Assembly (NCBI GenBank): GCA_033675265.1
Contig: JAUJYZ010000593.1
Span: 232,501-296,500 of the forward strand
Source: Actinostola sp. cb2023
Lineage: Eukaryota > Cnidaria > Anthozoa > Actiniaria > Actinostolidae
Direction of reading: 5' to 3'
DNA length: 64,000 nucleotides
In this document: positions 3,902 through 46,225 of the stretch, piece by piece
Position numbering within the stretch: the first letter of the stretch is position 1
Layout of the letters: every line of letters starts with the position of its first letter
The notes under the pieces: model-generated
Databases searched by the model: none
What the model was told of the DNA's origin: nothing
The model's input: only the letters and a program-made list of their open reading frames with translations
Made by a program: the position numbers and the translations under genes

Positions 3902-5005
3902 TCAGGCTTTATGTGTGTGGCTTTCTAAGCGCTTTTTACATTCACTGGCAGACGGTCTTATTCCAGCATTAGCATCTAGACAGGAAAAACTGACACCCTG
4001 TAAAACGTCACATTTCTTTGTCATATGGTTCAAACACCACTGAACCATGACTCCAAAGGAGAACATGTCTGTTGCAATCGATTGAGTGCTTGTCCCAGCA
4101 ATTAGTTCTGGAGCAATCCAGGGATGTTTTTCACGATAATGTTCTTTTTGTTTATCTGTCAAGTTGTATTTCTTAGGATGATCAAGAGACCTGCTCTTGC
4201 CGAAGTCAATTAATACAGGAATCCATCTGCTGCCATTAAAATGAAGTAATAAGTTGTTGTGCTTTATGTCATTGTGTAGCCATCCTTTACTGTGCAAGTA
4301 AGAAATTGCATGACATGCTTCTTGAAATAACGGACAGAATTCATTTAAAGGCAAAAGTAGTTGCTTCACAGCACGACCTAATGTCCAACTTTCCACTCCC
4401 TTGCCATAAAACTGAGTAACTAAAATGTATGGTTTTTCTCTTGTGCAACCGCCAAACAGGAAAGGCAAATTTGGAAAATGTTGGTTCTTTTGAACAGTGG
4501 CAATGACCTCCGCCTCTCTCCAGACCTGGTATTTATCATTGTATTTGTATTTTTTGACCGCTACAGGAATGTTACCACGATACGTTGCTAAGAATGTATT
4601 TCCAAATGTCCCCTCACCCAGCTGTATGTCCTTTTTACCGAGGTCGCAGGGCTCAAAATTCAATAGCTCTCTATTGATTTCAGGGAAACAAATCGATGGA
4701 TCGGGATCTTTTGTATGATTACAGCGTATACGCTTAGTTGGAATTAGTGATCGGCAGCTTGCAGATGCATGCGATAGCGAAGGATTATTCACAGCGTGTT
4801 CTACCATTGCTCGTCCTCTGGATAAAAAAGGAAGTTTTCTCAATTGTTTCTTAGTTTTCTTGACAGTTTGGTCAGCGCTATAGGCTGGGGTCTTTAGGTG
4901 GTCAACAAGCTGTCCATTTTGCCTCCGTTTACGATTCCGCCTATATCTTTTCTTATCCTCTTTGGTATGTCTCAAGACAACATCTTTCTGGTTAGCTTTC
5001 TCCAT
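3902..5005 (-). CDS. Protein kinase-like protein (single exon)
   Basis: Uninterrupted frame of 367 residues. Residues 1-60 are very basic (KKRYRRNRKRR) and could be a nuclear localisation segment. The kinase domain covers about 125-362: glycine loop GEGTFG (130-135), VAVKK with the ATP-anchoring Lys at about 151, a Glu in REAEV (164/166), catalytic loop LHNDIKHNN (Asp246, Asn251), DFG (267-269), APE (298-300), and the alpha-F Asp in TDMFSFG (313). The HRD motif reads HND, so the Arg that usually contacts the activation-loop phosphate is replaced; this suggests activity without activation-loop phosphorylation. All residues needed for catalysis are present. Whether it targets Ser/Thr or Tyr cannot be told. 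It stands head to head with the gene at 5526, 520 bp away. Single-exon kinases of this kind can arise by retrocopying. Confidence 0.85.
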   Translation of the reverse strand: MEKANQKDVVLRHTKEDKKRYRRNRKRRQNGQLVDHLKTPAYSADQTVKKTKKQLRKLPFLSRGRAMVEHAVNNPSLSHASASCRSLIPTKRIRCNHTKDPDPSICFPEINRELLNFEPCDLGKKDIQLGEGTFGNTFLATYRGNIPVAVKKYKYNDKYQVWREAEVIATVQKNQHFPNLPFLFGGCTREKPYILVTQFYGKGVESWTLGRAVKQLLLPLNEFCPLFQEACHAISYLHSKGWLHNDIKHNNLLLHFNGSRWIPVLIDFGKSRSLDHPKKYNLTDKQKEHYREKHPWIAPELIAGTSTQSIATDMFSFGVMVQWCLNHMTKKCDVLQGVSFSCLDANAGIRPSASECKKRLESHTHKA

Positions 5006-5525
5006 AGTTTACGAGTTGATCAATGATAAATTTCGTAACGTATAAGATGCTTCTATAATATGTGACTGCTTTTGGGATGAACAGCCATCCAGTCTCACTG
5101 CAAGCTCGTGGCATCCAATCACATTGTAGAAACGAGTACCGATTGCTGTGACCTGTTGACCTTAACTTCTCTAGTCGCTAGCAGAGGCGCTAGTTACAAT
5201 TTTGTGCAAAACACCTCTAATTTCTTTTTCCCCAAAGAATCTTTGTTCATGTGAGGCAGCTGCCTGTATTTAGTCTAATACTACTACTAATTTATTTATT
5301 ATAATAATAATGTCGCTGGCTTCTGATTTTTGTTTGTAACTTTTAATAAATCCTGTGATATTTCAAATGTAGATCGCATAACAATGTAACCTGACGTTTT
5401 TCAGCTGACAGCGTCGTCCAGAAATATCGTTCATCACAACTTCCGGTCAACAGCGTCCTATTTGCTCCAGTTACTAGTGACTCTTGGCACACTTTTAGAC
5501 CTTTAAACTTGTGTATTGCTATAAT
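5006..5525. promoter_or_regulatory. Shared intergenic region between divergent genes
   Basis: These 520 bp separate the start codons of the kinase gene (-) and the two-exon gene (+). No TATA box or CCAAT array stands out. A bidirectional promoter is inferred from the arrangement only. Confidence 0.3.
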
Positions 5526-7146: not shown

Positions 7147-7556
7147 AATAATACCATGATCGCCTCGGTTTCCATGAAGCTGCGGCTGTCGACCCCTGCC
7201 AGTTCCTTCCCCCTGTAGTTGTCTAAGTTTCTGTCATGTTGTAGTATCTGTTGGCATATTGCGGTTTGAAACACCGGAATATTCTTTTGTTATCGACTCT
7301 TGAGTTATCTCTGTTTTAATTGTTGAACGTCTCCCGCTTTACAAAAAAGGATTAGTTTGTTTGTTTAACGGACAGGTGTCCTGTCACTGGAATTGGTGCC
7401 TACCTATGTCACACTATCCAGCTTTAAGATATATTTTTAAAACACTAAATCTTCATTCTCTAACTTTAGTAAAACAGGGAAAATTAGACAATGTATTTTT
7501 GTATGACAGCCAACTCACAAAAACGTTGTACTTCCTCGGCGATCATGGTATTTAAG
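7147..7556. other. Spacer without recognised features
   Basis: A 64-codon open frame at 7361-7555 has no support. No repeat partner was found in this window. Confidence 0.4.
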
Positions 7557-8165
7557 TATAATACGGAGCGCGATCGATTGGATTTTGTATTAATTTTCTT
7601 TCGAATTATTGCTATCTTGTTTTAAAACGAAAGTCTTCCGAAAACCAGGCAAGCTTCTCTTTACACTTACTGAGCAAAGGCGAAACACCCGATTGCTCGT
7701 TCTTATCAGGCGAAACACCCGGGATAAGAACACGTAAAGTAAAGAGAAAGCCTTGGATGTCTTCGGTATAATACGGAGCGCGATCGATTCGATTTTGTAT
7801 TAATTTTCTTTCGAATTATTGCTATCTTGTTTTAAAGCGAAAGTCTTCCGAAAACCAGGCAAGCTTCTCTTTACACTTACTGAGCAAAGGCGAAACACCC
7901 GATTGCTCGTTCTTATCAGGCGAAACACCCGGGATAAGAACACGTAAAGTAAAGAGAAAGCCTTGGATGTCTTCGGTATAATACGGAGCGCGATCGATTC
8001 GATTTTGTATTAATTTTCTTTCGAATTATTGCTATCTTGTTTTAAAGCGAAAGTCTTCCGAAAACCAGGCAAGCTTCTCTTTACACTTACTGAGCAAAGG
8101 CGAAACACCCGATTGCTCGTTCTTATCAGGCGAAACACCCGGGATAAGAACACGTAAAGTAAAGA
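7557..8165. repeat. Three-copy 210-bp tandem repeat with internal dyads
   Basis: The marker ATACGGAGCGCGATCGATT starts at 7561, 7771 and 7981, giving an exact 210-bp period with almost no divergence. Each unit contains AGGCGAAACACCCG twice, a dyad GTTCTTATC...GATAAGAAC, and outer arms TCCGAAAACCAGGCAAGC/AAGCCTTGG...TCTTCGG, so each unit can fold on itself. The copies are nearly identical, which points to recent or homogenised duplication. Confidence 0.9.
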
Positions 8166-8320
8166 AAAGAGCCGGACTTTTGTTGTCATTTAATATTTTT
8201 GTTGAATTTTTGAAAGGACCGCTCCAGCTAGTAGAGCTGGTACTGGACGATGCTTTTAGAAGTACACTTACTTACTTACACTTGCACTTACTTACATCCT
8301 GTATACCACTCTGAGGGGCC

Positions 8321-8738: not shown

Positions 8739-11700
8739 TCATTGCTTTATTATATAAACACACGTGGAAAGTTTGTATACGGAACTAGGTTTACTTAGCT
8801 GTTCCGTTCCTACAAAGAGGCCAGATCCTTGGCTTTTACTCTCTCTCAAGCCATCATAGTGAGCCCAAGTTTCACCGAACTTTACAAATGCGGTGTAGTG
8901 GCCATTTCCAAACATCGTACAGCCAACTAGTTCGTAGGTAGTCGCTTCCACTGTTATGTTCATTGGAAGTTGGGAAACGACTGTCACTTGCGCCGAGAAA
9001 CGCTGGAGAGAAAAAGGAAGTGCAAATGGTATACCACTGACAAATGATCTTCTATGGTAGGTCCGCACACCATTGCACAGCTGGATCTTGAATGATTGGT
9101 TTGTGGTGGCACATAGTCCTGGTGGACCAAAGACCCAATCTGCACCCGGTGGTGGACTGCCGTTTTGGAATCGTTGGCCACACTGTGTTGGGGATGGGCT
9201 AATCCATTCTCTCAATGCGGCTTCCAGCAAATTTTCAGTAGGTTGTAGAACAGATGCCTCTTTTAGGTAGATCATCGGAACAGTGGAGGTACATGAACTC
9301 TTTGGGCAATGAGGAGATACACAGGTTGAAGTGATGGTAGTTGCAAAGGCCTCTGAGAGATAACGAACAAAATATTCTTCCTCATTCCCCCATACATTGA
9401 TCGTTCCAGAGGTAGTAACGTCAACTTGTGGTAGTTGTTGCAGCCATTTAATTTTGGCATCTGCAAAGCGTCTATTATTATACAACTCAGCAACTTCCAA
9501 CAGCTTTGAGGCAAACGGTTTCTTTATCTGACGGATTTGGTGTAGGAGATAACTGTTTCTCTTGATGTTCACACTCTCAGGGGCATTAAGGCACGGGTCT
9601 AAGACGACCACGCCCATCAAGCTTAGAATGACTGTAATATCATCTAGTTTTACTGTAGAGACTACAATTTAGGACACATCATTAAGATTAACGTTTTGTT
9701 AATTTTTGTTAATATGGCAGCCATGGTGACAGCATACTTGACCTTTGAATTGAAGTTTTGAAAAATAACTTTCAAGGCCTCGGGAGTATGGAAAAATGTT
9801 GATGTATTGGATTATTAAACATTCTATATGATACTATATGCCTTCAAGTTTATCGCTCCAATTAGATATCATGAAATAATATTATAACAAAGAAGAAAAT
9901 AAAGAGTATCAAATTTCATGTATACCTTAATGAGACTTCCAAACAAGTTAAACAAATTTTCAAATTAGACCGAGAGACTACCCAGTAACTCTGATTTATT
10001 CACATAGAAATATCCACCCTACGAAAACTTTCTATTGTCCTCCAGGAGACTTTTATGTAAAATTTTGAAATTGAAGGTCAAAGGTCAGATTACATGTTTC
10101 CATAGAAACAACTATATACAAAGGTTAAGGTTTCGACTTTATTACATTTGTCAAAGTTTCAGTGAATAATCACAAAAAGGAAAAGAAATAGACCACCCCT
10201 CTTGTTTTTAAAGCCGCCATTTTGAAATGTTTGAGACCCGTGCCTTAACTCTCCTGAGCTGAAGATTGTAAGAAAGTTATCTATAGGACAAGTGTTAATT
10301 AGTTTGATCGTAATGTTGCCACATTTTGACTTGTACAGTCCACCCCATGGACAAACTTTGGGTAGTCGGATAGCTGTTGTTGTTGGATATAGAAGGGATT
10401 GTGAACTAGTATTTCTTGGCTTTCCAAAATTAAGGCCCTGCTTAACAATTTCTGCTTTTGGCTGCTTAAGTTGATTTGGTTGTGGAGTTACATCTGTTTG
10501 GGTGGGCTTGGACGTGAGAGGAGTGTCATTGACAAACAAGTATTGGTATTTCTGAGGAATTGAATATTCATCAACTACACAAGTCTTTGATGTCGTTTGG
10601 CTGTAATCCAAAACGTCGCCTCCAAATAGTTCGTCGAACTTCAGGTTCGTGGCAGTAATCCAATGGCTGTCATCTGCTGTCCATTCAACTTTCTTTTTTG
10701 TCCAATGACAACCAGGAAAGTGAAAATCCTTGCCTAAAATGAAATGTATTTTTAGAAATCAGATACAGTACCAGAAAAGCATTTATTCACCTACGCCTCA
10801 GTGATAAATAAAAAATAACACATCAATTATAATGATTATTATAATTTCTACTGAGTTACTCTCAGAGGAACATTTTCATATTACATATTTACAACAGCTA
10901 TTTGAAATTTTCTAAGTGTGCATGCATTACCTGATGATAGACTGTGGTAGTTAAACAATATAATTCATGATTTAAATATAGGCAAACCATAACTTGCCCT
11001 AAAGGTCTTAATTATAGTTGATTCTATACCTTGATTATAACATTGCTGTGCTTCACGAAAACAATAACGTAGAAACAGCAGATAAGTAGCATAGTGATGT
11101 ACCAAGATCTGTTCAGCTGTGAAACCAAATCAAAAGAAATGAGCATGAGCTTTGCCGAGTTGACTGGTCCTGAACCCATTTGAGATTTACACTGGGGGAA
11201 AGGTGAGATAGCTAGATGCTTATTGTGATTTAATTGTAAGAAACGTTCTACATTCATAAGCAGATCAATAAAACCTTCTTATGTAGGGCCTTTTATAATG
11301 TTCTTTTTCAACTCCCCCCGCCGTTCCAACACACCCCAAACCCACCCACCCTCACATAATTATAATATACTACTTCAAAGTCTAAGTACCTGAGTCACCG
11401 GGCTGCTTACAGTCATGGTTTGTGGCCTTAGCATACAATTGGCGTTGCAGCTTATGAGAAGATTCAAACCCCTGACCAGAATATTTACACATTGAGCCAA
11501 ATCTTCGCATTAGCATCGATGCATGCTCTATCGTCAGATGGCCATAATCTCCTGTTCCGAGTTGTGGGCCAAACAAGTGTCGTAAAATGTAACCCCACTC
11601 TTTACACTGCAAAACATGTGAAACATTTCAGGTGACATTGCATAACTGGCATGCCGATTAGTTTTGAAGCAATATACATTACCTGTACATCGAATACGTC

Positions 11701-14700
11701 TATCCTGTCATGCTCATCCTTCTCAAACACTTCGTCTCTCATTATAAGTGCAATGTCTCTCCATTGTGTACACATCTAATTGGATCATTTATGAAAGAAA
11801 ACAATGATGGATATTTTGGAAATCTGATCGAGACCCCTGCAGTGACATAAGACCTACCCTCAAATAAAAAGTAGTCACTGACAACCAGAATGGAGAAGAT
11901 CCAATATTGAAGATTGAACATCAGAGACGACAAGTATAACAATATGCCAGTTCATGCAACTCACCAGAGTTATTAACTTTTTCTGTACAGACATAGAGTA
12001 GTCTATGAGTTCATCCACCTTGTCATCTCTTCCATCACAAATAGTAAGTTTATCAGTGATCTCAGATTTTAGGTTTTGCCAGACAACTTGTCTCTCAGAT
12101 ATGAATTTACCAACTCCCTCTTCAAGTAAAGAACAACTCAAAATAAGTGAAAAAAAAAAATGAATTTTCTATTTAGTTCAGTAGAATTGGTTCCGGTTAT
12201 AATGCTAAGAACTGACGTACATGAGAACTAGGGGTTATGTTAACCCTAAGTTCATTTAGTATTTAGGCTTTTTTACATGTTTGCACCGTAAATTGTTGCC
12301 CTCAAATTTCTCGAAATGCCGGCTATATTACAGACATTCTCTCAAAATTGTTGACCGTGCTATAATGACATTTTCGATCTAGACACACATGCAGTTCAGT
12401 TCAATTACCTTTTGTGCATATGGATATTTCTTCTTGGTTTGTGCCATGATCTCTCACAAAGGTTTTCTTTGAAAGGGTATTCTGATATTCCTGTTATATT
12501 TAAAATGAGATGAATAACAGAACGTAATTGCTATATATTCATTTTTCAAGCATAAATGGCAATTCGATTGCCAAGAACAAATATCAGTTGTCACCTATAT
12601 CTTATTCAAAAGCCTAATAATTTGATAGAGCAGATCAGATTTCGTATGAGTGAGAAACCTACGGGAAGGCCTCACGGTTACGGTCACGGTACGGAAAAAC
12701 AATCAGAAATCAAACTTACGGTTACGGTCGAAAATCTTACAGTACCGCTTCTCACTCACACGAAATATGCTGTAATGCAATAACAATACCAACCAACCGT
12801 TATCATTTCCTCACAGAACTTTGTTTGATTTAGAAGAAATAATTCTGAGATGTCGCGATCAGGAAACCTTTTTTTGAATTTATAGTCTGGTAGGGCTGCC
12901 TGAACAATGTCTTCTATATTCTTTAGGAATCTCCGTTCTGTTGGTCCTGAAAATTAAAATGCAATCTACGATCAGCCCTATTCTTTTACACTGCATGAAT
13001 GTTGCACAATGCTTTAAAAGGAAATTAATCCATGTACATACCTGAGATAGAACTCACTTTGATATTACTCTTATTGATTTTTGTTTGTTGATTCTTTTTC
13101 TCCTTAACTGTAACATAATCATGCTTGAAATTCTTTGGGCCAAGTTCTGACAATTTTTTATTGAGTTCAACCAGTGAGCCACAATTATACGCATGCAATC
13201 CAAGGGAACCAAGGATTTGTTCGGTGTTACGCATCTCGCAGTGTAGGGAGCAGAGACACACATCAGATAGATTCTCTTCAAGTAAAAACTCCAGATCATC
13301 ACGTATGCCTTTCCATCTGCACAACATAATAATATATATTAGCATCAAATTGTCATCTATTTGTCATAATTTTACTATATCTTTGCGTCCTTCATAATCT
13401 ATAGTCTATAATCTATACCCTCCCTCCTTCCCAGGTGACATATAAAATACCTCCAAATGATTGGCTCGCATTGACGCTTCATTTTGACAATACACAATCA
13501 TAATGGCAATGCAAGATGGTGCACGGTTGCTAACGCGCGTGATAGAAAATAACTGCTACGTTTACTATCATTTATGGACCGGCCATTATTTGATGGGAGT
13601 ACCTGGCTGATTATAGCATAACATATATTTCTATTCATTTTGAAACATAAATTTTCAAACAAGTTACGTTATTTTATCAGCTTAGCCTGGATGTTCTGAT
13701 ATTCATGTTTGAATGGAATTGTCGGCTCATTAGAAATGAAGAGTTTCAATGTTTATTTACACTCACTTTCCTATGTCACCCTTGCTTTCAGCAAAGCAGT
13801 TTAAGCAAACAACACCTGGATCTGTCATTGTACATCGACACTTCTATATTATTAATTGAAAAAGAAAGCACAATTTAAGTCAGCAAACTGACGGTTCGCC
13901 AGCAAAAGTCATGCGCAGCGCAATTATGCACAGAGGCTAGATGATGGTCGCAACATGGTAAAGTCTTGCGGCTACAAACCATCCGGCTTCATAAAGCTAC
14001 TAATAATAGGCAGGTACATTCTTCGTTTCACTTTGATTCCACATTCACAATTCTTTAAGCTGTGGTTTTTCTCACCCTTATTGCTTTACAATACAAGCAA
14101 AACTCCTTATCGAGTCCTTTCCCACCAAGTTTAAAGTGAGGATCATCCTTTTTTCTGGTGAGTAACTGGAGAGCTTTGTAATCCATTGTTACTGAATAAT
14201 TAAATGAAAATCAGTGTAAGGATGCATGAGTGTTGAAATGATGAGAGGGGATCGGCTTTTTGCTGAGTTAAACTGAGTCCAGTTTAGTTTGAAAAGACAT
14301 TGCGCGGATACCGTTGAGTTGTTAATTAGTCCTTTTTTACAACAAAAAAAAAACAGGAAAAAAGCGATTGATTACAACAATATTGCGTATAAAATGGTTC
14401 AAAATGCTACCGTCAGTCGTAGCTCATTGCGTGAAGTTAAGACTATTATAATGAAGATATGATAGCATTTGATTTCACATTGTTAATTAACCATAGGTGT
14501 CAAAATATTCCGCTTTAATTTACTGATTTACAATAGTCCACCGGATAGTCCGTTTAAACACATAATACACGTTTACCTGTGAAAGTTATTTTGTAATGCA
14601 TTCCATCAACATGAATGCCGTCTTTCTTAATCTCCTCCTTCTGCTCGTTCAGGTTCCGAAGAATGGTAACTACATTATTTCTAGAGAAAATACACATGGA

Positions 14701-17700
14701 TTATGTAAAGCAACTCTGTTAAATCGTAATCAACAGATCTTATTCGCTTCACTCAATGTTTGACCATTACAATCCTCTTGAGAAATACGTTTAGATCTTT
14801 GTTTGAAATGTGCGGATGTAAAATACACAGCGGAAGCCGTGTTTACCTTGGGCAAATATAATATAAGGAGTTATTGCCCAAGAGGCCACAAGAGGTATGC
14901 AATATAGTGGCAAGGTCTAATAACTGAATTTATCTCAAACAGTCAAACCTAAAAACATCACCTATTAATATATAGTTGATGTCATATTAAAAGAACACAA
15001 TCAGTTAATGCACGAATTCACATATCATTGATGCCAGCATTCATCAAACTCACCGAGTCTCTTGGCAGTTGGCAATAACCAGAGGGTATACTGATTTTGC
15101 ACTCTGTTGCTTATGTATTGGAACTCCAATTGGTACAAGGCCAATCATTACTTGATCCCTACCTATAAGTACAACAAAATAGGGTTAAATGTCAATATTA
15201 GAATTTATATACAGCTATTTCAAAAAACGTTGAAAACTGAATACTGCATACTGAATAATAGTGCATTCCAAGACCAAAGGGCATTGTGGGCCTCGTTATT
15301 TTGAAATAAAAAGTAAATATACATCGATTTATGTTCGCCATATGGAGCTAGTATATAAAATAAAATAAATGAGTATTATTTAGTTACGTTAGACAATATT
15401 ACACGAGTCCCAAAATGCATTTCGGTCTTGGAATACACTATTTAGAATTATCAAGGTTTTTTGAAAGAGCTGTATACACCTGTTTTCAAAAACGTTGTCC
15501 ATTTACAAAATACAAAATAGTAAATAGTAGAAAGGAATTAATTAGAGAAACAATGAGCCACAGTTCCGTGTGATTGAACTTCTTTTGTTTCTCTAATTAA
15601 TTCCTTTCTACTATCTACTATTTTGTAAATGGACAACGTTTTTGAAAACTGGGTCCGGTTGTTCGAAAGGCGATTAGTGCTAATCCTGGATTAGTGTCAA
15701 TAGTTTTCTTAATATTTAGGCCTGGATTCGGCGCTAATCGCCTTTCGAACAACCGCGGGCCCTGCAGCTGTAAATATAAATATTTGAAGGAACTCAAAAG
15801 ACTTCTTCAGGCAAAATAGTGGTGGTTTATTCCAGACGTTTCGCCGCTAATGAAGGCTTTGTCAATGCACAGTGACTCTCTCTCTAAAATTGTATATATA
15901 CACACAATATGCAAATATAAATGGAATTCGTACAATTGTAACAAAGGTAGTAATGAATTGTCAATATATCTATATATAATACAGCCCTTTGCAAAAATTC
16001 TGGCACTCAAGTATATCAATATATCGGGTGCATTATGGGCAATGCTATTTTAGAGTTTTCCTACAAAATATGCATCATCAGATACTTACAAACAACAAAC
16101 TAGAGACTAAAACGAACATTATGCTAAATATATCCACCAACTTTGCTAGTGTCAAACCACTTTTTGATTATTTAATTACCCATAATGCACGTGATATATT
16201 GATATACTGATATACTTGGTCGTAAAAGTTACCCCAAAATGGACGTCCATCAAGCTTTAAATTTACTTCCATGGTGTCGCTGTCAACTTGATGAAGGCGC
16301 ATTTCACGACTCATCCACTCAAGAACAGGACGGAGATCTGCATGTGCCCCAAGAATGTCATAATCAAGAGGGAGCGGATTAATTCCAGTGCAATCTTTAA
16401 CAATTGTAAATACGAGCTTTCTCACTGCTTTCACTTGGCCTTTCGTCAAAAACAGTGGGAAATCGCTGTTTTTCTATAAACATGAGAAATACGAATACGA
16501 TTAAATCGCAAAGTACAAGCTTAAGCCCGATCGAGATCATATTCAGTTGTACAATACAAAGAAGTACCCTGCACATGTGAAAACAAACAAACAAACAAAA
16601 TGACTTCCGATGATAAGTAAGCATCATATATAGAGTCCATAATATTCACAGTCTATGAACAGAGTGAATTTTTTTTCTGGTAATATTGTTTGTTTTGCCT
16701 TTACTGTATTTCCGGTGTTTGTTTGGTTATTGGATTATGCGAGCCAAAAATATCGCTGGCACAAAATAGTTTCAAGAAGTTACAAACACTTGAAAACAAG
16801 GCAACATCAATAGGTTTATCATTTAAACAGTTACTAATACAGACCATGTATTCATTTGATTGTGTTTTCTCCTGTTTCTATTTAGCATTTGTTCACACTC
16901 TTATATTAAAATATTATATCATACTCGTGTACTTACGCCGCTTCTTCCAAGATGCGTAACGTTAAGTAGTGTCTGCCACGCGTCATCAGGAATGGTAGAT
17001 GATAACTTGAAATAGAGCAAAACCCAGTCGGGCACACGTAGCTCTCTTAAATACTTTTTCAAAGAATCATCACTAAGAATTTCTTTTAAACCTGTTTTGG
17101 CGCCCTTTTTTTCCACAAGCATATCTACCATTTCACAAAGATCATCTTTCGCCTCTGAATCCGGAGAAAAGACAACCATATTTCCCATAACTGAAGAAAT
17201 CGAGGTTTGATATTTAGCAGCTATGTACTTAAAGGTGTGGTAAACCTTTTGTGTTGTATCGTCTGCGCGAGCAGTGAATTTTGGCTTCTTCTCCGGTGGC
17301 TCGAAATCCTCCTCGGGCATATTTACATTTTGCAATAGTTGCTTTAATGACTCCAGTTGATTTTGAAGCCGCTTGACATCGTCTTCAGATTTGAAGAGAT
17401 TCTTCTCTAGGTTGAGTATCTTGCCGTGCTGATCTTTTATTTCTTCGGAAAGCGTTTGAGTTGTTTCCTCGCGATCGGCAGAATTGGCGCCAGAAATGGA
17501 AGAATTGGCGCCAAAATCACTCAATCGAAACTTCGCGTTTACAATTCCTGGCAAAACGTTAAATACACGATGAAATTTCGGGTTCTTCTGACGTAGAATT
17601 CCAATAAATAACCCAAAAGATGTTGCAACATAGGCTTCGGATACGTGGGTTTGCTTTTGCAGACCAAATGCGCCTCTTGCCATGGACGAGCCATCGGTGG

Positions 17701-17869
17701 AGGTCAATTTGCTCACTTCTACTGCTTTTACTTCGCCCAGGTATTGGTTAAAAATACATTGTCTCGCAAACTTTGCTGGGTACATTCCACATAGTCCTGT
17801 ATTTAAGGCGTACCACGCTTTTTGACTGTCGAGAGTTGGACCGAAAACTCGTAGTATAGTGGAATTCAT
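8739..17869 (-). CDS. 14-exon RNase H-like transposase-type protein with C-terminal USP-like cysteine protease
   Basis: Exons (minus): 17869-16937, 16473-16233, 15162-15054, 14680-14577, 14191-14076, 13843-13767, 13316-13042, 12946-12794, 12490-12409, 12136-11965, 11775-11683, 11606-11399, 10733-10250, 9621-8739. All phases join and the total is 3930 nt (1309 aa). The exon 8 donor (GTTGGT) and the exon 13/14 junction are the weakest. Residues 1-311 are novel, with a coiled coil at about 135-185. Exons 5-6 carry a zinc-ribbon-like CLYC...CRC...CLNC cluster. SLHCEMRNTE (exon 7) and GQGFESSH...ATNHD (exon 12) resemble the later motifs of large RNase H-like invertebrate transposases. Exons 13-14 encode a USP-like peptidase: Cys box NTCPIDNF (Cys about 1003), His box GHYTAF (His about 1257), then YDGL (Asp about 1272). 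A consensus donor (AG/GTAAGT) lies just after the TGA, so a 3'-UTR intron or alternative end is possible. No stop in any exon suggests a working, perhaps domesticated, gene. Confidence 0.7.
9590..10244. mobile_element. TTAA-flanked DNA element inside the USP-like gene
   Basis: TTAA at 9586-9589 and 10245-10248 flank perfect 11-bp inverted ends GGCACGGGTCT / AGACCCGTGCC (15 bp including the TTAA). The element is 655 bp and has no transposase. TTAA targets are typical of piggyBac and Kolobok superfamilies; I cannot decide between them. It sits in the exon that encodes the protease Cys box. The best splice model uses a donor whose T is the first base of the TTAA, and an acceptor 31 bases inside the far end, so most of the element now acts as intron. 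Confidence 0.7.
12629..12772. repeat. MITE-like inverted repeat in intron
   Basis: AGCAGATC(A)GATTTCGTATGAGTG is mirrored by CACTCACACGAAATATGCT. The interior has several TTACGGTCACGG-type repeats in the same direction. It lies between exons 8 and 9 of the USP-like gene. Confidence 0.65.
15208..15479. repeat. MITE-like inverted repeat
   Basis: TATACAGCTATTTCAAAAAAC...GTGCATTCCAAGACC is mirrored by GGTCTTGGAATACAC...GTTTTTTGAAAGAGCTGTATA. It is in the intron between exons 2 and 3 of the USP-like gene. Confidence 0.75.
15484..15649. repeat. Near-perfect hairpin element
   Basis: GTTTTCAAAAACGTTGTCC through AATTAATTAGAGAAAC is followed, after about 35 bp, by its reverse complement ending GGACAACGTTTTTGAAAAC. 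The arms are about 65 bp with only small indels, so the element is young or held together by its structure. Confidence 0.85.
15655..15756. repeat. MITE, family A copy 2
   Basis: CGGTTGTTCGAAAGGCGATT through GTGCTAATCC is mirrored by CGGCGCTAATCGCCTTTCG...AACCG. It matches the element at 8321-8418 and starts only five bases after the preceding hairpin. Confidence 0.8.
15826..15862 (-). ncRNA. Degenerate hammerhead-ribozyme-like motif
   Basis: On the minus strand TGACAAAGCC...GGCGAAACGTC resembles the CTGATGA / stem II / GAAA-CGTC core found at the ends of Penelope-like and other retroelements, but the CTGATGA is altered to TTGACAA. It is probably a relic. Confidence 0.35.
16006..16219. repeat. 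MITE-like inverted repeat
   Basis: CACTCAAGTATATCAATATATC...GTGCATTATGGG is mirrored by CCCATAATGCACGTGATATA...GATATACTTGG. It lies 14 bases from the exon 2 donor of the USP-like gene. A related CCCACAATGCACGATATATTG occurs near 41430. Confidence 0.75.
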
Positions 17870-18441
17870 CGCCACTCCACTGACTTCAGAATCATTTTGA
17901 ATAACCCGCGCTTGAGGATTATGCTACTCTAATAAATAGAAATACGAGATCTCCTAGATTACATTGCAGACAACCATCAATGAAAAACAGAGCAAATCCA
18001 AAGATCAAAGTTTTCATAAGAAGGCTATTGGTTAAAAGATGTACGGGGAGATGTCATTGGCCCATTGGAAAATTGCAATCGCGCGCCATCTAGAAAATTA
18101 TGTCCACACACCTGATTATCTGGACAAAGTTGCATGACCATGTCTACAACTAAAATGCTATTGGTCGCTAACCCTGTTTCATGCATGTCTTTCACGTGAA
18201 CACACATGCATTGAAGTTTCATTGGTTAATCGATTGTCTAAGATCGCGCGCTAAATTACGATTTGTCCATTTGCGCGCAAACTGTATTCTTCTTATCAGA
18301 CTTCTTATACTGTATTCAAGTTTAATAATGCCCTTCTTGTGCGCATTTGAGACGGAGGTTACGCTCCGAAAAGAGAATGTGGACATTGTCAAAGTTGCTG
18401 TAGATGTTGTGCGAGAGGCGCCAGTGGAGACAGAGATATAA
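17870..18441. promoter_or_regulatory. Bidirectional promoter region with five CCAAT boxes
   Basis: This 572-bp spacer separates the start codons of the USP-like gene (-) and the HLH-like gene (+). ATTGG, the reverse of CCAAT and core of the NF-Y site, occurs at 18027, 18056, 18064, 18160 and 18221, in the same orientation. A CACGTG E-box lies at about 18193, and GCGCGC patches occur at 18080 and 18245. No TATA box is evident. CCAAT clustering is typical of divergent promoters; co-regulation of the two genes is inferred. Confidence 0.5.
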
Positions 18442-19884
18442 ATGATAGAAGACAAAGTGTACATATTCGATTCCAAGTACCGGGGAGATCGTGAAATCTT
18501 GGGGGATTTCTCTACTCAAGACAATGACTGCTTGGTTGGGTTGTTCAATGTTCATGGCATTGACAGAATGTCTGGGTAAGTGTGTCGATTGAACAAAAAA
18601 ATACTATTGTCTTATGCACAGTATATACATACACAGTATGCGCCAGAACGCACAAGTGCGCCAAATATCTAAACTGTTGTATTATTTTATATTTTAGACA
18701 TATCATGGGATCCGAACACGACCATTCGGCAACTATTGTTTTCAGGGTCTATGGATGTAAATCCCAAAAGAGGGACGTGGTTAAACACATCGCTACTGGA
18801 GGCCTGACACCAAAGCGTGTGCGGTACCCACGCAAGCCCGACGATAAGGTAAACCAGGCTATTAGTTCATTTTGAAATACCAATCACAGCTATGTGGGAC
18901 AAATTAAAGCTCTGATAATGTGGCGCAAATATCCAATTTTAGCGGGCATCTACTCAGTATTTTGCTCATTATCCCGCGCGTACAATTTCGCTTGGGTCAA
19001 CCAGGGTCAAGCGAGCGCGCACACTTTTTAATCGTGAATAACACTTTCCTTGGTTTCTCTTCTACTTTATAAAATTTATCCTCTTCTTATTCTGTTTTTA
19101 GAAGCTCAGATGCGCTGCAAGAGAAGTGGCTATGAAACTGACAGATTCACAAGGTATTTTACACGGGAGGGAGGTACTCTGGAATTTTTTGGGTGTGCCG
19201 TTATGATCCCAAAAACCTTACCCTATCCCAGACCTAAAACGACACTTTTCTGTGCCCTATCCCAGACCTAAGCTTGATAATCAATACGCTATCAGTACCC
19301 AACACGTCCGAGTTGTTGCAGATTTAGCTTTGTTCTGGAATGCGACCAGGCAAAAAACAACAGATAAAAGTATAGTGGAGTGTCATTAACATACCCTACC
19401 CCAGACCTCAAGACCTTGCAAACGATACCCGTATACCTTATCTATGGAAGTAAACACCCACACACCCCCGGCGGGGTAATTTACAAGTTACATTAAAGTA
19501 CGAGTATAATTATGCTAATGTTTCTCTACGTTACTGTTACAGAAAACTTAAAAGGAATGAAGAATGCATGGAAAGACCTGGCAGAGGCAGTGCCATACCT
19601 TTCTGATTTTTTTAGACCAGAACAGCCATCTTTAAAGGACACGGACGTAATTTACTTTTTGAACACGACTACAGACTACATTTACAATCTGGAGCAGGGA
19701 ATTGAGTGTTGGAAGGCTCGTGCTCAAAGGTATCTCAAACATTTATATGCCACCATTTCCATGAACCAAATGAATTAATTGACATTATATTTCTTTCAGT
19801 ATGGTACAAAATCAAGAGGGACTGATGGACAACGCGACAGATACTAGTGACAGTGATGCCACTCTGGATTATGAAAGCGAATAA
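18442..19884 (+). CDS. Small helix-loop-helix-like protein (202 aa), five exons
   Basis: Exons: 18442-18575, 18698-18848, 19102-19153, 19543-19729, 19800-19884. Donors are GTAAGT, GTAAAC, GTATTT and GTATCT; acceptors all end in AG after T-rich tracts. All phases join (609 nt). The ATG at 18442 directly follows an in-frame TAA. Residues about 80-110 are basic. Residues about 113-165 form two predicted amphipathic helices, LKGMKNAWKDLAEAVPYL and LKDTDVIYFLNTTTDYIY, split by a short loop, like the HLH of Myc-type factors. The canonical DNA-contacting basic motif is not visible, so it could act as a dimer partner or not be a true HLH. The C-terminus is acidic (DTSDSDATLDYESE). The intron at 19154-19542 contains a repeat with CCCTATCCCAGACCTAA motifs. 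Confidence 0.65.
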
Positions 19885-20048
19885 ACTAAAACTGAAATAT
19901 GTATGTGTGGAGTTTATTCTCTTTCTTTGTAAATATGTACAAATATTGTTTTTGAAAATACCGTGTGAATAAGATATCTATGTTCTTGTACAGTCTTTAT
20001 AAATGTATTTTTGATACATACCATGATTATAATTTACCATTGATGAAC

Positions 20049-20054
20049 AATAAA
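20049..20054 (+). promoter_or_regulatory. Polyadenylation signal AATAAA
   Basis: AATAAA lies 165 bases after the stop codon of the HLH-like gene, with a T-rich stretch following. It is the likely 3' end signal of that gene. Confidence 0.55.
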
Positions 20055-21993
20055 AATGTATATCTAAGATCTAACTTTGTTTTAACTTTGTTTTAGTTTT
20101 ATGGAATTTTTTTGAATATAATAATATATATTATACTAAATGCCTTCAAAGTAGTCGAAATTTCTACAATTTTACACACTCAAAATACGCTCTATCAGCC
20201 AGACACTCGACATGGCCAGGTAATCCCTTAATCCCTTAATCCCTTACTACCATAGACGACCTCCGAGGACGACTTTCAAACCTTTCTTCAAAATCATTCA
20301 AACATATTGATTTTGAAAGAAACAGTACTCGTTTCTATTTTATATTTAACTCAATATAATTTTTGTCTTTGAACAACGGAGTTATTTCGTAATAATTTAT
20401 TATAACGAGAAATGTGAATGCTCTGTGATGAGTTATAGACATGTTCATGATAACAAGCCGCTAGGAAAGTGATAATTGGATCAGACTGCGAGTACAATAG
20501 AAACCGTGATTCCCTGCTGAGATTTCCACCAACTTGAAAGCGGTGGAAACGCCGTAACTAAGCAGTGCGGCTCGCCATGAGAAGCTCGTGTTGTATCGAG
20601 AGAGAACCAGTTGTGTTGAATTAATATGCAGACGAGAAATGATGTTGTATCGAGGGCAAGCCATCGATCACCTTTTAAACACGTTCATTTCACATACAAG
20701 TTCCACGAAGTTTCTCATCAAAAAATGAACTCAAAAACTATCATGATCTCGCTATGCCATGTTGGCGTTTGTTGCTAATTGTAATAGCTTCGTGTACACT
20801 AGAAGTTATATCCGGCTTGTATTTAAACTCACGACCAGCGATGTAAAAATACTAACATCTAATCGACAGAAAGCTACAGAGGTCAAACAGTCGAGCCAGC
20901 CGAGTTGTTTTCAGTAATACTGCATCAATGTAATTAAGCAAATCCCTATCTGAATATTATTTGGCCTTGCATTTCTGTCTGAAAGTGTATTTCTAACCGA
21001 TGTCAAATACTGATGTCGGTGGCTTGTAAGAACTCGTAAAACAGAGATAGAGATCTGCGAATCGTACTTGGGACGTATATTCATGCTTAGCCGTTCTGAT
21101 AACGTCGGCTTGCACGTATATTGTTACTCGTGCCCAGGCCTAAGGCCGAGGCACGAGGTATAAAATACAGTCCGTATTTTTTTGTTGGTTCATGACGCGA
21201 ATCCACAATCGAGTGGGACTGGTAACTAGACCATGAGGAGAAATCCAAAATGGCCTCTCTCAGAAATGTTATTTAATACTGATCAGTTTGTAAAAACTAC
21301 AGTTGATTGTCATTAATTTGTGAAATAATTTTGCAAGGAATTCATATCTGAGTAGCATATACACTATACCTGTATGTATTGAAATGTAAAAAATGAATGG
21401 AAGGTGGAGGCCCATAAGTATGCGCCATTCATGCTGCAGTGCATCCCAGTACTCAACATCAATTGAACTCAAAAGTAATCAAACGAACTCAAAAGCAAAT
21501 CAAATGAACTCAAAAGCAAATCAAATCAACTCAAAAACTATCATGATCTCGCTATGCCGTAATTTACAAGAGCCATTCTTAATTATATCAAAAGAAGCCG
21601 TCTCATTATCTATTGTTTTAAATAAGAACGGCTCATGATTAGCACGACGACGGTCTGAACTAGGCCTAACAATTATTGATTAAACCAATGTATTGGCATA
21701 GCCCTACCAGCGTCCTTTCAAACCTGAACTTCGTGTTTAAGCCTCTCAATGAAACAATGGATTCTTTAAACCTATATTTTATTTTTATGCATACGAACGA
21801 GACCTGAGATGTATTTGCATATGAATTGTGCATTTATGCAAAGGGTCTATTGCTGGGTTTGTATGGGTTTGTATGCGATCAAGCAATGGATGACTCGGCG
21901 GCCATGTTGGTGGTACAAACAAGAGAAGCTAACGAGGAATGCATTGTTATCGGGATCCAACATGGCCGCCATGACGTCACATGCAAGACTTAC
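20055..21993. other. Repeat-bearing intergenic stretch
   Basis: No gene was recognised. It holds three TTAATCCC units at about 20224, a repeat (20578-20760) shared with 62817-62965, a hairpin CTCGTGCC...GGCACGAG at 21128-21158, a second copy of CTCAAAAACTATCATGATCTC at 21529, and an inverted GGCGGCCATGTTGG / CCAACATGGCCGCC pair at about 21898-21972. Confidence 0.55.
20578..20760 (+). repeat. Dispersed repeat B, copy 1
   Basis: The block starting AGAAGCTCGTGTTGTATCG and running through GCCATCGATCACC and AAGTTCCACGAA recurs at 62817-62965, where it directly abuts the other dispersed repeat. No coding content was recognised. Confidence 0.7.
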
Positions 21994-22162
21994 CAAGTAT
22001 TACTTTGAAATACCAAGGAATCGGATAGGGAAATATACAGTGGGCAGCGGTCACTACCCATTGAGGGCTAATCAGTGTTCCTGCACAGTATTGAGTAAAA
22101 GATAAATTGCTTCTTAATCCGTCCAGTTGAACTTGCCAGGGCCATAAGTGACGTACGGGCCT
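21994..22162 (-). CDS. Serine protease exon with the catalytic His
   Basis: After a GTACAG acceptor the exon reads WPWQVQL...[18 protein letters not shown], the S1-family segment bearing the catalytic His in TAAHC. It ends KVILG at a GTAAGT donor in phase 1. That phase and sequence fit the next family segment, GAHNR, which opens the Asp exon at 2652 downstream on this strand, 19 kb away. The other Asp exon (56593) lies upstream and cannot follow it in cis. The acceptor is only 20 bp from the minisatellite array. It is either part of a gene with huge introns or an orphan exon. Confidence 0.75.
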
Positions 22163-22181
22163 CTGTACCACTTACTACACG

Positions 22182-23788
22182 CTTAATACGACACCGACCA
22201 CCTGCTATTGAGAGAACAATAATATTAATACGACACCGACCACATGCTATTCAGAGAACAATAATATTAATTATAATACGATACCGACCACATGCTATTG
22301 AGAGAACAATATTATTAATACGACACCGACCACATGCTAGTGAGAGAACAATAATATTAATACGACACCGATCACATGCTATTCAGAGAACAATAATATT
22401 AATTATAATACGATACCGACCACATGCTATTGAGAGAACAATATTATTAATACGACACCGACCACATGCTATTGAGAGAACAATAATATTAATACGACAC
22501 CGATCACATTCTATTGAGAGAACAATAATATTAATACGACACCGACCACATTCTATTGAGAGAACAATAATATTAATACGACACCGACCACATGCTAGTG
22601 AGGGAACAATAATATTAATACGACACCGACCACATGCTAGTGAGGGAACAATAATATTAATACGACACCGACCACATGCTAGTGAGAGAACAATAATATT
22701 AATACGACACCGATCACATGCTATTGAGAGAACAATAATATTAATACGACACCGACCACATTCTATTGAGAGAACAATAATATTAATACGACACCGACCA
22801 CATGCTAGTGAGGGAACAATAATATTAATACAACAACGACCACATGCTATTGAGAGAACAATAATATTAATACGATACCGACCACATGCTATTGAGAGAA
22901 CAATAATATTAATACGAGACCGACCACATGCTATTGAGAGAACAATAATATTAATACGACACCGACCACATTCTATTGAGAGAACAATAATATTAATACG
23001 ACACCGACCACATGCTAGTGAGAGAACAATAATATCAACACGACACCGACCACATGCTATTGAGAGAACAATAATATTAATACGACACCGACCACATGCT
23101 ATTGAGAGAACAATAATAGTAATACGACACCGACCACATGCTATTGAGAGAACAATAATATTAATACGACACCGACCACATGCTATTGAGAGAACAATGA
23201 TATTAATACGATACCGACCACCTGCTATTGAGAGAACAATAATATCAACACGACACCGACCACATGCTATTGAGAGAACAATAATATTAATACGACACCG
23301 ACCACATGCTATTGAGAGAACAATAATATTAATACGACACCCACCACATGCTATTGAGAGAACAATAATATCAACACGACACCGACCACATGCTATTGAG
23401 AGAACAATAATATTAATACGACACCGACCACATGCTAGTGAGAGAACAATAATATTAATACGACACCGACCACATGCTATTGAGAGAACAATAATATTAA
23501 TACGACACCGACCACATGGTAGTGAGAGAACAATAATATTAATACGACACCGACCACATGCTATTGAGAGAACAATAATATTAATACGACACCCACCACA
23601 TGCTATTGAGAGAACAATAATATCAACACGACACCGACCACATGCTATTGAGAGAACAATAATATTAATACGACACCGACCACATGCTAGTGAGAGAACA
23701 ATAATATTAATACGACACCGACCACATGCTATTGAGAGAACAATAATATTAATACGACACCGACCACCTGCTATTGAGAGAACAATAA
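22182..23788. repeat. 42-bp minisatellite array, about 38 units
   Basis: The unit is close to TAATACGACACCGACCACATG followed by CTATTGAGAGAACAATAATAT. Common variants are TTGCTAGT for CTATTG-type positions, GATACC for GACACC, and ATCAACACG for ATTAATACG. Because 42 is divisible by three, long open frames run through both strands (14-residue repeats), but they are by-products. Small islands of the same unit occur at 25826-25943 and 26808-26943. Confidence 0.95.
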
Positions 23789-23945
23789 GCAATTATTCGA
23801 TGAGGTTGAGCATGATATCGTATATTTTCAAGACCGAGGTCTGTGTTATCTGCGGAAGCCGTAGGCTGAGGCAGATAACACAGACAGGAGGCCTTGGTAA
23901 TTTACGATATCATGCGAAAACCGAATACAATAATTGTTTTATTAA
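23780..23945. repeat. Inverted-repeat element at array edge
   Basis: AACAATAAGCAATTATTCG...CATGATATCGTA is mirrored by TACGATATCATGCG...ATACAATAATTGTT. The centre CTGTGTTATCTGC...GCAGATAACACAG is itself a strong hairpin. It closes the minisatellite array on its right side. Confidence 0.7.
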
Positions 23946-32949: not shown

Positions 32950-33927
32950 CTATACATCGGAAAAGATTTGCCTACAAATTGGAACATTTGGTCTTTTCGG
33001 CCCTAGCCCCTGCGAATCCCTTCGAATTCTTATTCTTCTTTTTTCCTGTCAGTTTCTGATTGTTTTTCACTTCAGTATATTAATATTATATATATAATAT
33101 GCAATATGTACTTCAGTTTTTTAAATTTACATTTTCGCTTGACCCCCTCCCCTCCCCCTCCACGAAATCCCCAAATCAGTCATAGATTATTGCTTTTATA
33201 ATTTCATGCCGTGATTAGATCTGATTAATACATCGACATATATAACACTTACTTGATACATTAATTGTGCATGGAAAAAGGGTTCACTACTGCTTTGCGT
33301 TGAGTATTTCCACCCGCTATCAGTTCCCTCAGATTCATCAGTTTTGTTTGTGCAACGGCGAAGGCACAAGCTGTTATCAATAGTCATACTAACAACACCA
33401 GAGAAGCCTGACACATCATATTTTTGAATGCCCAGGAGTTTACATCGAGTCAAACTAATACAATGATCAATAGATATAAATACTAGGAAGAGCTTCGAGG
33501 CTGTTGTGTATATACTCTGTATGGGACTCTATAAAAACTGGCCGCAATACGGTGCGAAAATTTTACGAACTAACATGTATTTGGTATCAAAATGTCCATA
33601 AAAGCGCGGGCTATGCTAATCCGTAGTTAATTTCGTGACTAGGCCTGTGTAGTTTCAATAAAAGCTATTTATGTGGGCTGACAGGCCAGTTTGAGGTCAT
33701 GTCACGCCAATTCTCTTGTAAGGTAGACCCATTCAACTAAAAAAATACGGTACTTTTTTGCATCGAATTTCAATTATAACCAAATAATATGGTCCACGAA
33801 AGATAAAAAAAAACTAAATCCGTCGTTAACTTTTTAGTTATATGCATTTATACGAGGAAAATTGCAAAAAAACCTTGAATTTGAGTCCATGTTTGTATGT
33901 ACTAGAATGTGGGGGCGTGCCAGAGAA
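32950..33927 (-). repeat. Duplicated block, inverted relative to 52533-53492
   Basis: The minus strand here matches the plus strand of 52533-53492 nearly throughout, from CTCTGGC(A/G)TGCCCCCAC to TTTGCCTACAAATTGGAAC. It carries the exon-like segment at 33450-33258. Confidence 0.85.
33258..33453 (-). pseudogene. Possible signal-peptide first exon, copy A
   Basis: This copy matches 53001-53195, where one frame encodes a clear signal peptide. Here a three-base insertion after GTTAGTAT makes a TGA in that frame, while the alternative frame (TDESEGTDSGWKY...) stays open to a consensus GTAAGT donor. Which frame is used, if any, is unclear. It lies upstream of the ShKT exon on the same strand. Confidence 0.4.
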
Positions 33928-42381: not shown

Positions 42382-43929
42382 TTTATTTAGACACGGAATC
42401 AAAAATCACTAAAATTAAAATGAATTACAAAGTGCCGTGAGCCGTGTAAAAAGATAATTATACTTAAATATAGTTTATTATTATATTATTATTATTATTA
42501 ATTATTATTCACAAAATTCCATGTCATTTGGTTGAAGTGATTTCTCTGATAGGTTAGTGTTGCTTTAATGTTCATTCATGGAGAGTTCTGTGACGGGACA
42601 AATTCTGGTTGCTAAGTTATTCATTATTGAGTCTCATTTCATCGCATTTTGCACATTGTCAATGATGTGTTGGATGATGACACATCGCTCATTACCGAGA
42701 AAAAAATATTAGTTTTAAGTTTTCCCAAGCTTCAAATTTCCTCTAGTGGAAAGATTATTAGTTTATTAGTCTTTTTGTGTTATTCATTTTTAAGGCAAAA
42801 TTTTGCCGCACTCTCATTTTGACTCAAATTTATCATGTACTTTTGCATTCTAAATTAGCACTAAATAGTGCAATGTCTTTTGTTTTCTATTGTTCCATTG
42901 GTGCTATTTAGTACTAGTTAGTTAGTACTGTTTCATGGTTTTAGTGCTTGCACTCTATATAATGATTTTTCGTATTCTTATTTTCGTATCAAATATGGGC
43001 AAAAAAAACTTTGCTGTAGTTTCATATTTCAGTACTCAATTATTTTAATTTGTTTCACCTTAATGTTTTGGGAATCTTTACTGAACCAATACATACAGTA
43101 AGCTTTAATACATAAGTTCCTACAGTTCTCAGTTGAAAATAATTATTGTCTTAAAATTCTCGTTTTTTATCTAATGTACATTATGTGTTCATATCATTTG
43201 AAGAATTGATAGGTTACATCCACATAACTGGGACTGCCAGTCTCGCATGACCATCATTTCCAAAAATTGAACAAAAGTGTTAACCATGCCAGTACTACTA
43301 ACAGCAATTATGCCTCCTCGCTGATCATGAGACAATTATGCCTCCTCGCTGACTTTCATATAAACATATCTTCATGTTGTCAAAGCATATAAGCATGGAC
43401 TTATCTGGTGGCACAATGAGGACAGCTGCAAATAGGCGATGTTGCTGTTGTTGATCCTCGAGATGATGCTTGAAATCTTGTGTTGTGAAGAATCCCATGT
43501 CTGCAAACAGATTGAGCCTTCTAAAGGTGGGATTGTTTTTTTGTATAACCTGCCTCACATCTATATTAGGCTGACTAACAGGACAGTGAAAAGAGTCATA
43601 GATCTCATTTCCTTTTCTTATAATTTGAATGTAGGAGGTAACTATATGTGATAGATCTGACATTTGACTTGGAATCTTTAAGAGACCTTGTAAATACTGA
43701 AGGGCCCCGAAAACAGCTGCAATAACAGTACATGCATTACTGCCATTCTGTCTACCACCTACATGTATGTTTGACTGACATATGGTGGAGGGCAACAGCC
43801 ATTCAGTAATGTCCATGTGCTTTCTTTCACCAATCTGTATAGATGTAGCACTGGTATTTGCTCGTGGTGCCATTGTAGATTGGTGGCTTGTGGACTTGGT
43901 GTTTTGTGATGTACATGTAGATTGATGGC

Positions 43930-44110
43930 GTGTAGACTCGGTGTTTTGTGATGTAGATTGATGGCTTGTAGACTGGATGTTTTGTGATGTAGATTGATGG
44001 CTTGTGGACTGGATGTTTTGTGATGTAGATTGGTGGCTTGTCGACTGGGTGTTTTGTGATGTAGATTGATGGTTTCTTGACTGGGTGTTTTGCGAAGCAT
44101 GCCAGGAACA
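43930..44110 (-). repeat. 36-bp coding repeat (12-residue STSQNTQSTSHQ type)
   Basis: About six units of a 36-bp repeat reading GATGTAGATTGATGGCTTGT-like on the plus strand. The same tract also stays open in the other minus frames, which explains the overlapping frames there. Confidence 0.85.
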
Positions 44111-46225
44111 AGTACAAGTTGACTGATCTCTAGTTGGAGTACAAATATTGTTAGGGCATCGAGGACAGATGGATTGTAAGTTAACGTTGCTTAATTTGGT
44201 ATGCCCTCTGACTAAATGATGACATTTTGGAAGTGGCGGCTGGATACTGGTGTTATGGCATGGTGTTGGGTTGGTATGGGTATTACATGGTTGTGGTGGT
44301 GGATCTAGGTTGGTTATTTCATTTTTCAGTTGCTGAATCACATTGTCAAATTCACCAAAGTCCATCCCTCACATTTGGACAGTTTGAACCTTCATTGTCT
44401 GTAGAATCTACTGCACTTGTGTCTTCATCACATGATGCATGTCCATTGTTATTGGATGCTGGATTTAATATTGCATTATTTGCAATTTCACCAAGTTCTC
44501 TCACTTTCTTTTGCAGGAACTCTTTACATAAAGGACAAGATAAATAACCTTTCAAACAAATATCATGAAAAGAATGCGAACATCCATGAAGTATTGTCCA
44601 GTTTGTATCTTCATTTGAGATTTGGCACTCAGGTAAGTCACAGGTTTTAGCCAGTTTTGTCAGGTTTTATCTCAGTTTGGTATCCAAGTGGAAGAACTGT
44701 GGTTTTCGTTGACGTGTTTGGAAACATGGTGGGCAGTGTACATGAACTTCTTTGTTGGTTTCTTGTGTTTGTAGTCATGAAGCTTTGTGCAGGAGATCTA
44801 ATAATTTTTTGTATGATTGATGTTAAAATCTTAGTTGACTTTGTGAGAATATATGAGAACTGTTTTGGTGAAGTAAAGAATAATCTGAAGTTTGATTGTC
44901 TATCTTTAGGAATGGAAAATTGATTTAGCTTTTCTTCTCAGTTCTTCTGCAGTGTCAGATGGATTGGTTTGAGCACGAAGTATACTATGTACATTTTCAA
45001 CAGGATATCCATCAAAGATTGCCAAGTAATTACGCAAAAGGTCAAATAATTGTGGTGAATGCTTTCCCCAGTACGAGCACATATTTATCCAAACCAATGG
45101 TGCCTTGTTGTAATGTCGTCGTCTCAGGCAGGTAAACATAATCCAGATTCTTATAATAGCACGGAAGTATTCAGTATAATTATTTAGCTTGAAGGAAATG
45201 CTGTAAATGGAGAGTACCAGAGGTATATAGTTGTCTAATAGGTTGAACAAAGTTCCATATTCCAGATTTTTAAATTTTGAACATTTTCTAATCACAGATT
45301 CTCTTATTACTGTCCAACCACCATATACAATCTCCAGCAGTCAACTTACTCTCCAGGGTTTTGGATTGTTTGCTAGTATACTCCTTGGAAACAGTGTTTC
45401 ATAGATCAACTTAGAAAATGGGTGAAATGTCAGTAATAACAATATGCTCTCTGCTGTTTAGGGAGATGTGAAGTGGACCAATACTTGGGACAATAGACAT
45501 AATTGCAGGTGTAGAGGAGCTTGGAGTATTTTCAACAGTTGCTGTGAAGTTTGTGGCTTGGATATTTTCAGAAGAGTGAGGAGATTGAAAGGAATAGGAG
45601 TGATCATCTGGAGTGTGGCATATGTAGTTTGGACCTGAATTGAACAAGTTTTGTTTTTGTAGACATTGGTATATGATTTGCCGATAGTAAAATTGGCATG
45701 GCCAATCTCCTGGCTGAATAACAACAAACGGTTGCATGTAATCTGCCATGCCAGTACTCATTATTACACCATAGGCTGCTTCAAAGTCGTTTTTGGATTT
45801 CTGTCGGAGTTCAATAAAATCAAGTAAATGTAAATTTTCCATTTTTCTCATTGTTCTGACCGAATCCACTTTGGTATCACAGAAGCATAGCTCCTGCTTA
45901 AATCGTGCATACTTGATGCTGATGTGATAACATTTTGGCATGATTCAATGTTCACTCCATATGGGTCATGTATGGAAATATAATTACTGTGTGATTTTAT
46001 GGCAGGGATGTTTTTGAATGCCTTAACAATTATTGTGCACATGGATTTTGCTTCTGATGCCTTGTCAACTTGTGGTCTCCTTTTTGTGTGTATTGAAGTG
46101 TAATCATCTAATATTAACACTAAAAGCCACTTATTTTGGATGGCTTCCCTTATAAAGGCTTCAAAACACACAAAATAGGATTCTGCCATCCTATGAAGCT
46201 GACTGTCAACTGTTCTTCTAGTACG

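Follow-up and report, generated by a model that had tools for sequence, protein, structure and literature searches.

The spliced gene and its exons

The window analysed here is a stretch of 64,000 nucleotides from the sea anemone Actinostola sp. cb2023 (GenBank assembly GCA_033675265.1, contig JAUJYZ010000593.1, positions 232,501 to 296,500 of the forward strand). Its minus strand holds a spliced reading frame that extends from an ATG at 17869 to a stop at 8739. An earlier note on this DNA had proposed that a transposase-type nuclease core and a C-terminal cysteine peptidase of the ubiquitin-protease type are combined in a single spliced product, and our analysis supported this combination. 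We consider it probable that this gene represents a diverged member of an anthozoan transposase family with many copies, in which a core of the RAG1/Transib type is joined to a variable papain-like peptidase. The features are as follows (minus strand, apart from the upstream stretch, to which no strand was assigned; C755 is another contig of the same genome; MITE, miniature inverted-repeat transposable element).

17857..20366, upstream stretch; second copy at C755:142120-144019, 99% identical apart from gaps, with 18438-18992 missing there
16937..17869, exon 1; ATG, conserved N-terminal 311 residues, coiled coil; alignment to relatives P0006 and P0007
16233..16473, exon 2; RAG1-like core begins; D386 in LKLDGRPFWG (RAG1 D600, by motif)
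15054..15162, exon 3; E426 in IANCQE, aligned to RAG1 E662
14577..14680, exon 4
14076..14191, exon 5; D466 (RAG1 D708, by motif); C494/C497 (RAG1 C727/C730)
13767..13843, exon 6
13042..13316, exon 7; LHCEMRN motif (RAG1 counterpart LHCDIGN)
12798..12946, exon 8
12409..12490, exon 9
11965..12119, exon 10
11683..11775, exon 11
11390..11606, exon 12; H801/H806 (RAG1 H937/H942); E826 (RAG1 E962)
11030..11116, exon 13; core ends
10259..10733, peptidase exon, 5' part; linker, Cys box NTCPIDN (Cys 1028)
9574..10258, MITE in the peptidase exon; 683 bp plus AG duplication; 25-bp inverted ends, 88%
8739..9573, peptidase exon, 3' part; remaining USP-like domain, GHYTAF, HYD, stop

Exons 1-13 are followed by GT donors, exons 2-14 are preceded by AG acceptors, and the phases are consistent. 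With the MITE omitted, the last two pieces form one exon, and the earlier note was borne out in its 14 exons, 13 junctions and matching phases. Its figure of 1309 codons was not reproduced: in-frame joins across the MITE yielded products of 1318 to 1366 residues, and omission of the MITE gives, by arithmetic, 1315 residues.

The Oculina patagonica homologue LOC144666603 (P0001) aligned with the product from about residue 306 onward (52% identity over the region searched, 49% in the alignment). The N-terminal 311 residues, which had been thought to match nothing, are alignable to the same region of P0006 and P0007, and starts resembling this N-terminus were seen by eye in P0014, P0021, P0024 and P0025. 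Since homologues thus align along the product, we conclude from the sequences that the predicted exon chain is real. All nine homologue hits in one search, and the 20 named of 24 in another, came from corals, gorgonians and sea anemones, organisms which we take to be anthozoans throughout.

A RAG1/Transib-like core

The central ~570 residues are supported as a putative DDE recombinase core of the RAG1/Transib type. P0001 was modelled as a stand-in for the window product, and a Foldseek search of its modelled core against the PDB returned RAG1, RAG1L and Transib as top matches, with 14-16% identity in the structural alignments to RAG1-type structures. In the MAFFT alignment, E662 and E962 of RAG1 and its zinc ligands C727, C730, H937 and H942 were aligned in all six family rows, and the aligned zinc-ligand and acidic positions were invariant or nearly so in the family alignment. 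The latter also showed D466 to be invariant (10/10) and D386 to be retained in eight of the nine rows that have a letter at this position. The RNase H-like, transposase-type core of the earlier note therefore stood as a nuclease core and was sharpened to RAG1/Transib-like by the fold match and the aligned residues. The LHCEMRN motif was considered as the carrier of the third catalytic acid and dropped, as by RAG1 numbering it is a non-catalytic motif.

Putative C-terminal peptidases

In an alignment read by eye, the C-terminal domain of the window product exhibited a Cys in NTCPIDN, a His in GHYTAF and an Asp in HYD, as well as a GHY...W..YD stretch; the order of the three residues presumably matches the USP motifs. 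USP-like domains of this kind were found in the window copy and in the homologues from Oculina, Desmophyllum and Paramuricea. A second kind, Ulp1-like, is carried by Exaiptasia P0007, Actinostola P0002 and P0011, and two loci of the window's own genome (C755 and C318); all five displayed, by eye, an Ulp1 motif of the HW...D...GSCG type. The Pfam C48 score of P0007 was 19.1 bits, below the cut-off of 20.7. Judged by these motifs, related cores carry two kinds of predicted peptidase that differ between members.

The domain in the window is best described as USP-like; we do not call it a USP, and its membership in that family is unproven. It is possible, though we hold it to be the less probable case, that it represents another papain-like peptidase, or a peptidase no longer, and is no relative of USPs. 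In favour of this, the Pfam UCH match of the peptidase exon reached 13.7 bits, below the cut-off of 23.9, and Pfam gave no match for the joined window domain or for the Oculina and Paramuricea domains. Against the PDB, a profile search with the USP-like domain was empty, and the single sequence retrieved antibody and other unrelated chance matches. The structure model of the peptidase exon was unusable (mean predicted local distance difference test, pLDDT, 36.7). On the other side stand the USP-like order of Cys, His and Asp, the fact that UCH is the sole Pfam family listed for the exon, and an hhalign match, at a probability of 1%, between the His boxes of this domain and of a clear USP. Of the USP fold claimed in the earlier note, the three motifs are in place, and the UCH score falls short of the family cut-off. 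Used as a protein query, the USP region retrieved itself alone.

Two further loci with peptidase-like sequences were observed. In a long open frame elsewhere in the genome (L001, G000:C1507:1380988-1384863), the Pfam UCH profile clearly identifies a USP domain (1e-32); the frame also matches an HMG box, though weakly, and its HW end looks Ulp1-like by eye. It possibly belongs to another transposon family with the same type of cargo. Within the window, inverted repeats of ~0.9 kb (32955-33871 and 52583-53490, 97-100% identical in five pieces) lie ~20 kb apart and look like the ends of a large element with terminal inverted repeats (TIRs). Between them, an open reading frame (ORF, 43325-44368, minus strand) contains a papain-like Cys motif, 'NGSNACT', which we take to be typical of tegument-like deubiquitinases; it had no Pfam match above cut-off.

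A young MITE in the peptidase exon

At either end of the insert (9574-10258) lie 25-bp inverted repeats (88%), and an AG flanks it on each side. A search of the same genome (G000; 424 Mb, 1594 contigs) yielded 344 candidates, of which 40 matches were scored, the insert itself included. All were at least 95% identical, many of them 99-100%, and the best reached this level from end to end. For comparison of the flanks, 30 of the 40 loci were cut out, and three ragged-ended copies and one repeat were set aside. The two flanking bases agreed on both sides in 25 of the 26 usable copies, window included (L011 disagrees). The insert is a young MITE that makes a 2-bp duplication. A reading with a TTAA duplication was dropped, as the reading frame and the 25 agreeing copies fit the 2-bp duplication.

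The MITE landed behind the Cys box, between the Cys part of the peptidase and its His and Asp parts. When it is removed together with one AG, the Cys box continues in frame, and the spacing to the next block is 19 residues, identical to that in Oculina, Desmophyllum and Paramuricea. A frame that runs through the insert either translates MITE sequence or requires splicing at the MITE's own ends. Because of its position, the peptidase is split on this haplotype unless the MITE is spliced out, and the description of the frame as uninterrupted and intact had to be abandoned.

We regard it as unlikely that the MITE acts as a new intron, with donor 10250 joined to acceptor 9573, so that the peptidase is kept and the gene still functions. 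This GT-AG pair is in frame, its splicing would cost just three extra residues, and the AG duplication provides the acceptor at 9573. Speaking against it, the donor GTTAAG and the pyrimidine tract are weak by eye, and 13 other in-frame splice pairs span the MITE.

Copies and recent mobility

With 77 of 514 candidates scored, the core had at least 78 matches on at least 52 contigs of the genome, its own included, some contig pairs among which may be alleles. A copy on contig C154, for which the best 32 of 2232 candidates were scored, shares its first base with copies on C14, C318 and C1580, and the copy on C585 begins one base later (98-99% identity). The identity of the five copies extends over more than 3 kb, while their flanks are different. 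The 5' end of this branch reads (C)ACGAGGAGCTAAGACC; the leading C occurs in four of the five copies and is, in one case, present in the empty site too. That site lies on C1423, where 2.4 kb match the left flank of the C154 copy at 100% and the element itself is missing from the sequence that follows; it appears to be an empty allele. From the 5' end that the copies have in common despite their differing flanks, and from the apparently empty counterpart, it follows that this branch has moved recently. Its peptidase is of the Ulp1 type in C318, the sole copy whose end was read.

The window copy is without a near-identical sibling among the scored matches; the closest were C1542 (66-78% by exon) and C133/C1544 (65-79%). 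Its upstream stretch has the second copy on C755 listed above, which stops 12 bp inside the reading frame and adjoins a paralog of the Ulp1 type. Abutting this broken copy, C755:141400-142120 is reverse-transcriptase-like (Penelope-like by eye). Beyond the C318 copy, a kinase-like stretch was seen by eye at C318:392913. The contig of the C154 element also contains a ~4.1-kb repeat (L059:1-4128), to which the genome has at least 12 matches that are 3.7 kb or longer (97-100%).

The earlier note had held selection as a host gene to be likely and had itself named many diverged, multicopy relatives with TIRs as evidence to the contrary. Such relatives, TIRs aside, are what we found, as are an apparently empty site and copies with 98-99% identity across more than 3 kb. 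We therefore favour an old transposon copy over a domesticated gene, domestication being unproven. That the window copy has retired from transposon life and is maintained by selection seems to us unlikely. It would agree with a frame open for ~1,300 codons, the MITE aside, with the ceiling of 79% identity by exon among the other scored core matches and with the failure to find TIRs near this copy; it is opposed by the split peptidase and by the many copies of the family in this genome, one branch of which is mobile.

Strength of the assignment

Several results weigh against the assignments proposed here. Concerning the core, the best Pfam RAG1 score on the window exons was 10.9 bits (E = 0.12, exon 12 alone; cut-off 25), and Pfam RAG1 matched neither the joined core nor nine relatives. 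The family profile retrieved no RAG1 from the PDB, and hhalign to a single RAG1 core reached a probability of 2%, though the correct residues were paired. The Foldseek superposition was loose (TM-score by target 0.35-0.46, root-mean-square deviation 8-20), the mean pLDDT of the P0001 core model was 59, and MAFFT left D600 and D708 unaligned, so that D386 and D466 were assigned to them by motif. Concerning the peptidase, C48 went undetected by Pfam in P0002 and P0011, in which the Ulp1 motifs were recognized by eye, and activity and target of the domain are both presumed. Concerning mobility, members of the RAG1/Transib group are recognized by a TIR with a CACWRTG-like start and a 5-bp target site duplication. 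In the mobile branch, a 3' end, a TIR pair and a target site duplication were looked for and none was established (candidates for the duplication in C318 were indecisive). Around 8.7-17.9 kb of the window, the TIR search gave three matches of score 14, within the range of ten block-shuffled controls (0 to 5 matches, best score 17). Mobility was demonstrated for the branch containing the Ulp1 type and is not shown for the USP-type lineage.

As the Pfam RAG1 cut-off was missed, we base the claim on the fold and the residues and call the core RAG1/Transib-like instead of filing it as RAG1. An origin from another DDE superfamily such as hAT/Hermes, with common architecture alone behind the likeness to RAG1, is highly improbable, even with Hermes as the next family in the Foldseek list (E 7e-3).

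Other features of the window

Immediately downstream of the gene, a 210-bp unit occurs in three tandem copies (7556-8185; 93-99% to the reference copy), and a protein kinase ORF is located at 3902-5008 on the minus strand (Pfam, 2.4e-24). A tandem array of a 42-bp unit at 22137-23800 comprises 36 to 44 register copies, depending on the family; it is open on both strands and adjoins a stretch that is trypsin-like by eye.

Proposed mechanism and comparison with known systems

On balance, we lean towards an anthozoan branch of the RAG1/Transib superfamily that is still mobile and carries an exchangeable peptidase directed against ubiquitin or SUMO. Using the chemistry of RAG1 and Transib, the core would cut and join the ends of the transposon, and the peptidase might strip ubiquitin or a ubiquitin-like tag off the transposase itself or off host proteins. 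Removal of the tag could allow the transposase to escape degradation or silencing, in parallel to what has been suggested for the deubiquitinases of Helitrons. On the window haplotype, the open frame of ~1,300 codons is broken by the MITE, which landed very recently.

RAG1 shuffles antibody genes and is the founder of our adaptive immunity. If our interpretation holds, its superfamily would be widened by a multicopy, apparently mobile cnidarian branch with its own N-terminus and exchanged peptidases, and removal of tags from the transposase would be a tunable component of RAG-type transposition. This raises the testable question whether a RAG-type transposase depends on controlling the ubiquitin or SUMO tags that it carries itself. 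RAG1 carries a RING ubiquitin ligase, and a deubiquitinase-type cargo would be its functional opposite; Pfam detected no RING in the N-terminal part of the window product.

The anthozoan family shares with RAG1 and RAG1L (ProtoRAG) the core fold, E662 and E962, the zinc ligands C727, C730, H937 and H942 and the LHC motif. It differs from them in its own conserved N-terminal region and in the C-terminal peptidase of ubiquitin/SUMO type, and identity is as low as 14-16%. Cnidarian RAGL transposons with RAG2L are known (PMC7204232, PMC9435367). Compared with the Transib and Chapaev transposases (Kapitonov & Koonin 2015, PMC4411706), the gene has many introns and the peptidase fusion; no Chapaev sequence entered this comparison. 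Among the open PMC papers listed, at the level of titles and the beginnings of abstracts, we found no description of a RAG1-type core or transposase fused to a ubiquitin or Ulp1 module. Peptidases as such are familiar cargo: Cryptons carry Ulp1 (C48) proteases (PMC3212892), and a paper on the Ginger transposons names Ulp1 (PMC2836005). As in these elements, a DNA transposon carries a peptidase in addition, and part of the anthozoan family has the Ulp1 type; in contrast to them, the peptidase is fused to a RAG1-type core, and some members have a USP-like domain instead. Helitrons possess VTD/OTU deubiquitinases, for which the authors suggest a role in protecting transposition proteins from degradation (PMC9741609). 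Both systems would thus equip a transposon protein with a deubiquitinase domain, but the peptidase family is a different one, and so is the transposase, which in Helitrons is a HUH helicase.
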